Source of the DNA: Prosthecobacter sp.
GTDB lineage: Bacteria > Verrucomicrobiota > Verrucomicrobiia > Verrucomicrobiales > Verrucomicrobiaceae
Direction: 5' to 3'
Length of the DNA: 64,000 nucleotides
Assembly (NCBI RefSeq): GCF_034366625.1
Contig: NZ_JAXMIH010000010.1
Location: 62,001-126,000 of the forward strand
Shown here: positions 7,753-22,442 of the stretch, one piece after another
Numbering within the stretch: position 1 is the stretch's first letter
Layout of the letters: each line of letters begins with the position of its first letter
Translations under genes and position numbers: made by a program
Notes under the pieces: generated by a model
Database searches by the model: none
What the model was told of the DNA's origin: nothing
What the model saw: only the letters and a program-made list of their open reading frames with translations

Positions 7753-8118
7753 GAACAAGTCCTGGTTGAGATGAACTGTGATGCCGCCGGAGGCAGCCTG
7801 CCTCCTGGAGACCCTGAGGCCGGAGAGTTACGGAGGTCGGGGGCGGGATTTCTCACGCGACGACGCGAAAGGGCGGAGGAGAGTTGGAGAAGTGGAGTGA
7901 TGGAGGAGTGCGGAATGAATGAGACTTGGAGCCGAGCACAATGGCGGGCTGCGAACCGGAACGAAGTGGAGATAGCCGAAGGCACACAGATAGAATGCAG
8001 CGATGAGCGTGGGTGAGATGAGTGTCGTGAGCGCTGCTCCCGGAATTCAACGAAGCCGATACCAAGGGACCGTGCGTTGCTGGTGATGGACGGCACCGGC
8101 TGGCATGTCCTCTGAGCC
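7753..8118. other. Gene-free repeat-bearing gap upstream of the IS element
   Basis: About 366 bp with no convincing gene. It contains a 17-bp palindrome GGAGGCAGCCTGCCTCC (7789-7805) and a purine-rich GGAG/GTGGAG stretch (about 7868-7915) resembling one at 21480-21530. It also holds a copy of the dispersed repeat listed separately at 7928-7984. Long open frames crossing it on the minus strand also run antisense through the IS element and look like shadows. Confidence 0.6.
7928..7984 (+). repeat. Dispersed GC-rich repeat, intergenic copy 1
   Basis: Contains GGAGCCGAGCAC (from 7928) and the block from 7951 to 7984 with the core GGAGATAGCCGAAGGCA. The same modules recur at 22244-22290 and 61471-61613. 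The GCCGAGC half matches the reverse complement of the two insertions inside the neighbouring transposase. No coding potential. Confidence 0.55.
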
Positions 8119-8347
8119 TGCCACGAATTCGCGGACACGAAAACCAACCTGTATAGGAACCGTGTCCAGTGAACCAAGAATCTGAATCGACCAACCGGGG
8201 TGCGCAGCACCCGATGCATGATGAAGCCTTCAAAGAGCAAGCCGTTCTGTTGATGGCCGAAGGCGCGCGCGGCCCCGTGGCGCTTGCGGCGGCGGTGGCC
8301 CGCCTCCAGGCCGATCTGCGTCATGTCATCATCCAGCACGACATTTT

Positions 8348-8354
8348 AAAAAAG
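8348..8354 (+). promoter_or_regulatory. Programmed -1 frameshift heptamer (A6G)
   Basis: AAAAAAG read in the OrfA phase as xxA AAA AAG. A -1 slip gives the canonical continuation KKALAID. In the present copy that frame reaches a stop at TGA 8459-8461. If 71 bp (8369-8439) are removed, the shifted frame continues directly into orfB, which is the normal IS3 OrfAB arrangement. Confidence 0.65.
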
Positions 8355-8368
8355 CCTTGGCCATTGAC

Positions 8369-8439
8369 TCGGCTGCGCCTTCGCCCTGCGGGCAGCACTC
8401 CGTGCTGTCTGTCTCGCTTCGCTCGGCTGTCGGCCAGAC
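8369..8439 (+). repeat. Dyad element inserted at the orfA/orfB junction
   Basis: 71 bp flanked by GAC on both sides (8366-8368 and 8437-8439), consistent with 68 bp plus a 3-bp duplication. The core hairpin is GGCAGCAC-TCC-GTGCTGTC. It shares CCCTGCGGGCAGC, CTGTCTCGCT and GCTCGGCT with the second insertion at 8869-8934. Its length is not a multiple of three, and removal restores the frame. Confidence 0.65.
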
Positions 8440-8457: not shown

Positions 8458-9390
8458 ATGATCCACGCCATGATCTCCCATCCTGGCAACACGCATTGTC
8501 TCACTGACATGCGCCAGACGCTTGAAGTATCGCGCAGTGGTTACTACGATCACACGCACAAGGCGCACCGCCAGCGCCGTCAGCAGGATCAAGCCATCGC
8601 CACGCAACTCGTCGAAGGCTTCAAGCTCAGCCGCCAGACTTATGGCAGTCCGCGTTTGCGCGAGGTGCTCAAGGCGCAGGGCCTCGGCGTGAGCCGCAGA
8701 CGCATCAGCCGCCTGATGGCCGCCAAGGGACTGCGCCCCAAGGCCAAGCGCCGCTTCGTGCCTAAAACCACGCACAGCAATCACTGCGGCCCCATTGCCG
8801 CCAATCTGCTTCAACAACGCCGCCCCACTCCACCCACCCGCCTCAACGAGATCTGGGTCAAAGACATTTGCTTCGTTCGCTGCGCTCACCCTGCGGGCAG
8901 CCTGACGGTTGGCTGTCTCGCTGTGCTCGGCTCTTACATCCCCACGCGTGAAGGCTGGCTCTATCTTGATGCCACGCTGGATTTATGCAGTCGCCGAGTG
9001 CTCGGCTGGCACGCCTCTGCGGCCATGCCTGTGGAGCTGGTCATCACCTCGCTGCGCCAGGCCTACAGTCATCGCGGTGTTCCCCTGCACGACCTCATCG
9101 TTCATATCGATCGTGGCTGCCAGTATGCCAGCGCGGCCTACCGCGCTGACCTCACCCTGCGTCACGCCATCCCCAGCATGAGCCGCACAGGCAACTGCTA
9201 CGACAACGCCGCCATGGAGTCCTTTTGGGCCACGCTCAAAACCGAAGCCTTCGGCTCCACCATCCCCGCCACCCGCTCCGCTGCCATCACCATGATCTTC
9301 GATTACATCACCACCTTTTATAACTCCAAGCGTCTCCATTCTTCCCTCGACTACATGTCCCCGCTGGACTTTGAAGCCTCACTCAACTAA
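8458..9390 (+). pseudogene. IS3 transposase OrfB (DDE), interrupted in frame
   Basis: 310-residue open frame with the retroviral-integrase-type DDE core: Asp136 in EIWVKDI, Asp218 in VHIDRGCQYAS and Glu254 in DNAAMESFW. The HTH_21 region precedes it (QTYGSPRLREVL). Residues 138-159 do not belong to the family: the normal DITYIPTREGW motif is split, with a 22-residue Cys/Gly/Leu-rich stretch between KDI and YIPTREGW. This insertion is one residue after the first catalytic aspartate and should destroy activity although the frame stays open. Related to IS150/IS407-like IS3 members; no closer assignment possible. Confidence 0.8.
8869..8934 (+). repeat. Dyad element inserted in frame in orfB
   Basis: 66 bp, a multiple of three, encoding residues 138-159 of the OrfB frame. 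It has the core CCCTGCGGGCAGCC, a short loop, then GGCTGTCTCGCT and GCTCGGCT, forming a GGCAGCC/GGCTGTC stem with one wobble. It matches the insertion at 8369-8439 in the same orientation, and the reverse complement of 22244-22290. Confidence 0.65.
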
Positions 9391-22243: not shown

Positions 22244-22290
22244 GAACCGGAGCGCAGCGGAGATAGCCAGCCGCAGGCTGCCCGCAGGGA
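22244..22290 (-). repeat. Dispersed GC-rich repeat, intergenic copy 2
   Basis: Read on the minus strand it is CCCTGCGGGCAGCCTG followed by GGCTGGCTATCTCCGC and GCTCCGGTTC. It lines up with the in-frame transposase insertion at 8869-8934 over the CCCTGCGGGCAGCCTG core and the following GGCTnTCTC segment. The remainder of the 22178-22442 gap shows no gene, only a small GGCAAAC/GGTTTGCC dyad at 22207-22227. Confidence 0.6.
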
Positions 22291-22442
22291 TGGTGAAGCC
22301 AGGCAACATTTCCCTCCTGATCAAAGCGATGTCTCCAAGTCTCCTGAGCACCCGCCTGCATCGCTGTGCAAAGCACTGCGGCTGGCAGCGAATCTCCGCG
22401 TCTTCTGGGACGTGGCTAAGCGGCGGAGGATCGAGGGGCCAG

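Follow-up and report, generated by a model that had tools for sequence, protein, structure and literature searches.

Mobile repeats that code for parts of proteins are familiar chiefly from Rickettsia and Wolbachia. In the accessible part of their description, Rickettsia palindromic elements (RPEs) are 105–146 bp long and possess long stem-loops and 12-bp terminal inverted repeats (PMC2229807). The repeats treated by Delihas in 2007, enterobacterial RU-1/RU-2 (ERIC, YPAL) and neisserial NEMIS, are according to the available portion of that paper MITE-like, fused in frame and 103–168 bp long, several of them having terminal inverted repeats and target duplication (PMC2759123), and a 107-bp neisserial repeat is located in transposase genes (PMC2759123, PMC2229807). 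A third group are the GTAG and CGTC REPs, which the available text defines by a tag at one end of a 20–40 bp palindrome; GTAG REPs are abundant in O. terrae, a verrucomicrobium, and some REPs lie in genes (PMC3733652).

The present analysis concerns a stretch of 64,000 nucleotides from Prosthecobacter sp. (the window), which contains three copies of a small repeat. This repeat works like each of the groups above, yet for each of them it lacks at least one of the defining features that were tested. Like the palindromic elements of Rickettsia and Wolbachia, as far as their accessible description goes (PMC2229807), it is small, dispersed and palindromic and occurs in frame within protein genes as well as between genes. 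Orthologues of the genes that carry it in frame are uninterrupted, loci L116 and L143 being exceptions to the in-frame rule (loci are numbered with L and genomes with G). Set against the available RPE description, it differs in its length, mostly 59–71 nt, in its tiny hairpins and in the concentration of one subtype in signal peptides, and its ends, TTG and GGCTCT or CGGTTC, are not inverted repeats. An earlier note on this DNA had likened it to RPEs; the likeness holds for behaviour and for the existence of a dispersed family, and it fails for membership, the repeat being about half the size and without a terminal inverted repeat. Of the two features that define a MITE, target duplication beyond a 1–2 bp ambiguity was absent from eight comparisons of filled and empty sites, and terminal inverted repeats were absent, by reading, from the copies listed. 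A literature search that left out preprints and covered subscription papers sparsely brought up the Delihas papers and the REP survey and no description of this repeat; the note, too, had known of no such family in verrucomicrobia. The present system is a separate one, in which orthologous genes can be compared with and without the repeat, the copies are numerous enough for statistical treatment, and one class of protein region has been hit again and again. With it one can test whether proteins simply put up with small selfish repeats or can recruit them, and how such repeats move when no enzyme is known for the task.

Two insertions in one IS3 transposase gene

A 310-residue open reading frame on the plus strand (8458..9390) encodes an IS3-type OrfB with an integrase core. 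It matches HTH_21 and rve (PF00665, 3.8e-15), the domains expected of an IS3 transposase, and is the sole match of its IS in the genome at E≤1e-5. The frame runs across copy 2 of the repeat (TTG...GGCTCT, 8868..8934, plus strand), which stands directly after KDI, presumably the holder of the transposase's first catalytic Asp and a motif covered by the integrase core match. The DNA reads GACAT-TTGCTTCG...CTCGGCTCT-TACATC and the protein KDI-CFVRCAHPAGSLTVGCLAVLGS-YIPTREGW. It had been claimed that the motif KDI...YIPTREGW is split by a 66-bp element, and conservation of the extra residues in intact OrfB proteins had been named as the finding that would speak against it. The interruption is a real insertion of somewhat different size. 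The uninterrupted orthologues L032–L034, 81, 79 and 76% identical to the window OrfB over the best segment, read GACATCAC(T/C)TA at the site, and because of this the net gain is 63 bp (21 codons) and not 66, the repeat itself being 8868–8934. None of 80 OrfB relatives has residues at this position, so the conservation in question is absent from all 80.

Copy 1 (TTG...GGCTGT, 8364..8430, plus strand) lies after the A run that closes orfA and before orfB begins, and it likewise represents a net gain of 63 bp against the uninterrupted orthologues. The covariance model described below scored copy 2 at 71.3 bits (8874–8934, E 3.7e-15), copy 1 at 66.6 bits (8367–8430, E 4.9e-14) and a third window copy, of the CGGTTC-ended subtype (22244..22304, minus strand), at 59.5 bits, all three having belonged to the 12 sequences from which the model was made. 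When as many as three mismatches are allowed, the repeat's right-hand part is found twice in the window, where chance would give 0.02 occurrences. The view that the two insertions share pieces of sequence, and that one small element entered a single transposase gene twice and once in frame, was borne out.

The orfA remnant (8169..8363, plus strand) is shorter than the orfA of L033 and lacks a stretch present there; L032 and L034 are also shortened. The run of A before orfB, which we take to be the IS3 frameshift run, has six bases in the window and seven in L032–L034. The host IS looks decayed and, by its appearance, dead. Because of this the in-frame state of copy 2 is weak evidence of function, and its reading in one frame was set aside as a sign of it. 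For copy 2 the insertion is evident and there is no sign of function.

A degenerate relative containing GAACCGGAACGAAGTGGAGATAGCC is located at 7953–8006 on the minus strand. Taken as a pattern it is unexpected by chance; its model E value of 0.25 is below significance.

A dispersed family of hairpin repeats

Used as a query against the genome, the 66-bp stretch hit 37 places at E≤10, and for 17 of these E was below 0.01. A covariance model (R1) was built from 12 of this genome's copies, which a similarity search with the window copy had brought up, and it gave 46 matches here at E≤5 and 35 at E≤0.01. R1 matches were found in at least 29 of 37 near genomes, this one included, with at least 50 in the richest genome, G011, and none at E≤0.01 in G005 and G018 (at most 145 candidates scored per genome). 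Across the phylum they were found in at least 6 of 194 genomes, two of the six being this genome and another of its genus (scoring covered 27 candidates in each genome). The copy numbers and the figure of 6 in 194 are lower bounds, because the number of candidates scored per genome was limited.

Collecting copies, which had been proposed as a check, gave 123 that were read, 30 from this genome and 93 from relatives, and some of them lie in unrelated genes. Their lengths range from 51 to 76 nt with a mode of 61 (97 copies of 59–63 nt, 13 copies of 71 nt). The 5' boundary is TTG in 109 of the 123, and the commonest 3' ends are CGGTTC (41) and GGCTCT (20). Copies carry one hairpin, CCC-NNN-GGG, and after it a second, CAGC..GCTG. 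When 94 matches (91 distinct) were aligned to the model, an alignment that is fitted to the structure, 96.4% of cells paired and 22 cells showed double changes compared with 5.1 in shuffles (0 of 500 reached 22); at one stem pair A-U stands in 65 rows and U-A in 16. The stems are kept by paired changes. Covariation was weak in the first 12-copy alignment, built without structure (51 of 500 shuffles reached it), and stronger in a 14-copy alignment of the 71-nt form, with 9 double-change cells and 0 of 500 shuffles. Folds of five single stretches had no stability excess over shuffles (z −0.48 to 1.64); the stems are visible only in alignments. In five loci Rfam gave no match to the repeat, the only hit being a tRNA at one end of one locus. 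The family is a small, hairpin-rich dispersed repeat of about 60–71 nt with no gene of its own.

The CGGTTC-ended subtype often lies within a longer repeat (L153, L175, L178, L181, L184, and L189 at 1501; G011, G014, G020, G022). Several copies of the latter have an outer hairpin of their own ending in CATT (or GCATT) before the subtype and a CA(A/G)GACGCT tail after it, and the whole reads as a modular, larger element.

Filled and empty sites could be compared at eight places, and the net gain ranged from 60 to 69 bp. Besides the two window copies (63 and 63), it was 60 bp at L146 (IS3, G008), 66 at L332 (IS3, G041), 60 at L269 (a DDE_Tnp_1 transposase, G043), 69 at L248 compared with L244, and 69 each at L292 compared with L286 and L293 compared with L290; L292 and L293 are orthologues, and one event may account for both. 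In-frame reading was the reason for following up six of the eight, only window copy 1 (63) and L332 (66) not being so chosen, and therefore the multiples of three among the net lengths are not independent evidence. No target duplication beyond an ambiguity of 1–2 bp was seen at the eight sites, where the sequence preceding the repeat is CAT(T) or ACTT. Transposase genes were not always left readable: at L116 the repeat stops an orfA seven codons in, at L143 it shifts the frame of an orfB, and L332 now holds a stop. We take L116 and L143 to belong to the IS3 family and L269, with Pfam matches to DDE_Tnp_1 and DUF4372, to IS4.

The 71-nt subtype in probable signal peptides

Among the 30 loci of this genome, six (L112, L113, L114, L115, L120 and L124) carry the repeat in frame near the start of long open reading frames, in leader-like sequence. 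A model of the 71-nt subtype (R2) was made from 14 copies picked among the R1 matches by length (71–74 nt) and not by context. At E≤1e-9 it gave at least 39 matches in 18 of 48 genus genomes, at most 104 candidates being scored per genome. The 30 matches of 71–74 nt were counted. Nine were left out: the decayed 70-nt copy L274 and eight 62-nt copies (L279, L112, L268, L142, L146, L269, L115, L275), of which four (L279, L112, L268 and L115) can be read as leaders too. In 26 of the 30, one forward frame stays open for at least 250 codons counted from the repeat's first base; the other two forward frames do so in none. By reading, 25 of the 30 lie in N-terminal signal peptides, all in the single frame ASLRSLLRSSTRFAVLAVSLCSA or close to it. 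L270, L276, L265 and L266 were not read as signal peptides, and L273 has a long frame with no clear leader and no Pfam match. Of the six frames of the 71-nt consensus five are open, and the ASLRSLLRSSTRFAVLAVSLCSA frame is the most hydrophobic. L173, one of the 25, has in addition an antisense frame that is longer.

The proteins downstream of the 25 copies fall into 20 groups at 60% identity; 17 are sulfatases, two PSCyt1 proteins, one ThuA and one a 3-keto-disaccharide hydrolase, and four have no match. Over 270 pairs in which the proteins are less than 45% identical or give no hit, repeat identity averages 89.1% and reaches 98.6% (24 of the 25 copies; the 74-nt L220 was left out). In the accessible part of the Delihas paper signal-peptide cases amount to a few loci, whereas here there are these 25 copies, with repeat-free orthologues. 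Judged by eye and by hydropathy, the leaders that contain the repeat are probably working signal peptides. This recurrent insertion was missed by the earlier note, since it is located outside the positions with which that note dealt. In this group a number of secreted proteins would seem to have N-termini derived from repeats, and the signal-peptide subtype is the part that deserves specialist attention.

The copies L170 (G008) and L260 (G046), from different species and from proteins with no detectable similarity, are 98.6% identical, whereas the nearest 28 orthologues of the L113 gene have 69–86% protein identity, hinting at recent spread between species. Elsewhere, a copy at L130 (G000:C30:90226-90284) stands just before GFTLVEIVIALT, which by reading resembles a prepilin leader.

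Orthologues were tabulated for the L113 gene and for a PSCyt1 gene, with 30 listed loci each. For the L113 gene the repeat is present in L230, L241 and L248 and as a shortened remnant in L253; 26 loci are without it. Of these L242, L244, L250 and L252 read straight through the site (e.g. SSFVI-LHSSFAAGAP), and others among the repeat-free loci have different leaders. L245 and L250 carry reverse-oriented copies at or just upstream of the N-terminus, the internal copy being absent. For the PSCyt1 gene the 71-nt form is found in L292 and L293 and the 62-nt form in L281, L283 and L284, on another branch, so that two subtypes occupy PSCyt1 leaders of two branches; 24 listed loci are without the repeat (e.g. 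MRFIIPFVI-LHSSFVIAAAP), and L306 falls short of the N-terminus. Because orthologues without the repeat read through the site in both gene families, the comparison indicates that the signal-peptide leader existed first and the 71-nt form entered it later. For the 62-nt form in the PSCyt1 gene no clean empty site was seen among the 30 loci listed.

The empty site belongs to an ATTCGTC-like repeat, which is the apparent target of the 71-nt subtype. A 26-nt pattern of it, searched with no more than one mismatch, was present in 42 of 48 genus genomes (reversed control 0), with a peak of 184 matches in G014, overlapping tandem-array matches being counted apart. In a number of leaders, e.g. L250 and L286, it encodes the SSFVI/HSSF stretches. 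As a control for the target, 40 of the first 45 exact sites in G014 were read; the five that were skipped are second sites on contigs already represented. At least 250 open codons follow in the leader frame at 11 of the 40 compared with 26 of the 30 filled sites (Fisher p 8e-7), and on a generous reading 8 of the 40 look like signal peptides compared with 25 of the 30 (Fisher p 2e-7); this base rate comes from one genome, and a control frame that runs off its contig is scored as short.

In 24 signal-peptide copies third codon positions hold mildly more of the variation than the others do, 8.53 of 18.08 bits. The excess was reached by 753 of 20000 column permutations, so that it is no more than suggestive of selection on the encoded peptide.

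Movement and persistence of the repeat

Taken as a whole, the data are best explained by a mobile hairpin repeat that has inserted many times in the genus and of which the 71-nt subtype survives in leaders, a reading to which we give a probability of about 80%. The 71-nt subtype would be placed beside CATT within the ATTCGTC-like repeat, which often encodes SSFVI..HSSF in leaders. Copies in frame could then survive because stops are missing from most frames of the repeat and one frame is hydrophobic after an arginine-rich start, which would let it pass for a longer signal peptide. The weakest step is the movement itself, which might be the work of a trans-acting enzyme on single-stranded hairpins, or else of recombination or template switching between short flanking repeats. 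No mobilising enzyme was found, the 11 Y1 transposase loci having no significant copy within 1.5 kb. It is also conceivable, as a tentative extension, that the 71-nt subtype acts as a portable export signal, kept because its hydrophobic frame works as a signal peptide or strengthens one. If true, a transposon-like leader, recently spread to sulfatases and other secreted enzymes, would be common to parts of the secretome across the genus.

The alternative that survives best holds that gene conversion or recombination between flanking ATTCGTCATT repeats, and not transposition, was the main way in which the signal-peptide copies spread; their enrichment there would reflect a cassette swapped among genes for secreted proteins. 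Similarity between copies does reach 15 nt upstream and 12 nt downstream (67% and 72%) before dropping to 35% and 45%, the flanking motif is itself dispersed (184 matches in the richest genome and none in the reversed control) and the intergenic 71-nt copies have the same flanks. However, orthologues without the element have much the same flanks, and for this reason the flanks could instead be the target. Moreover, shorter subtypes lie at sites without ATTCGTCATT-type flanks, such as the IS3 genes and L269. Exchange of cassettes as the main route is therefore a serious candidate that we consider somewhat doubtful.

A mobile hairpin repeat of high copy number could also be a palindrome of the REP type that a RAYT (Y1) transposase mobilises. 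The repeat shares short palindromes and abundance with the GTAG/CGTC REPs, and there are 11 Y1_Tnp matches in the genome. However, none of the 11 Y1 loci contains a copy above chance, the best of three matches having an E value of 0.44. The consensus ends without a GTAG or CGTC tag tetranucleotide, and the repeat is larger than 20–40 bp. Membership in this group is unlikely.

Lower still do we rate the possibility that the repeat is an RNA structure at the 5' end, regulating translation or secretion of the mRNA, with the peptide as a by-product. What speaks for it is one stem pair that is T-A or C-G in 23 of 24 signal-peptide copies, the residues being Leu..Ser or Pro..Gly in 21 of the 24; the alignment indicates that the hairpin is kept even where the protein switches between Leu..Ser and Pro..Gly. 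The same hairpins are nevertheless present in copies between genes and within transposases, and relative to the gene they occur in both orientations; orthologous genes do without the repeat, and Rfam recognised it in none of the five loci, so that a regulatory role is improbable.

That the stretch in the window is merely an OrfB insertion inherited by one IS3 branch is hardly credible: three IS3 OrfB genes do have the repeat at the same codon (L146, L332 and window copy 2), yet L329 and L032–L034 are empty, which covers both branches, and the repeat is also found in unrelated genes. L329 is empty even though it is 92% identical to L146 over query residues 116–269. Common descent of the IS3 insertions was set aside on account of the empty sites on both branches. 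Because L329 and L032–L034 are empty, the simplest reading of the same-codon copies would be independent gains; exchange between IS copies is possible.

A reverse-oriented copy at L118 (G000:C29:10043-10103) is open in frame within a frame of 771 codons. This frame has matches to the PSCyt2 and PSD1 domains, and the PSD1 match spans the repeat.
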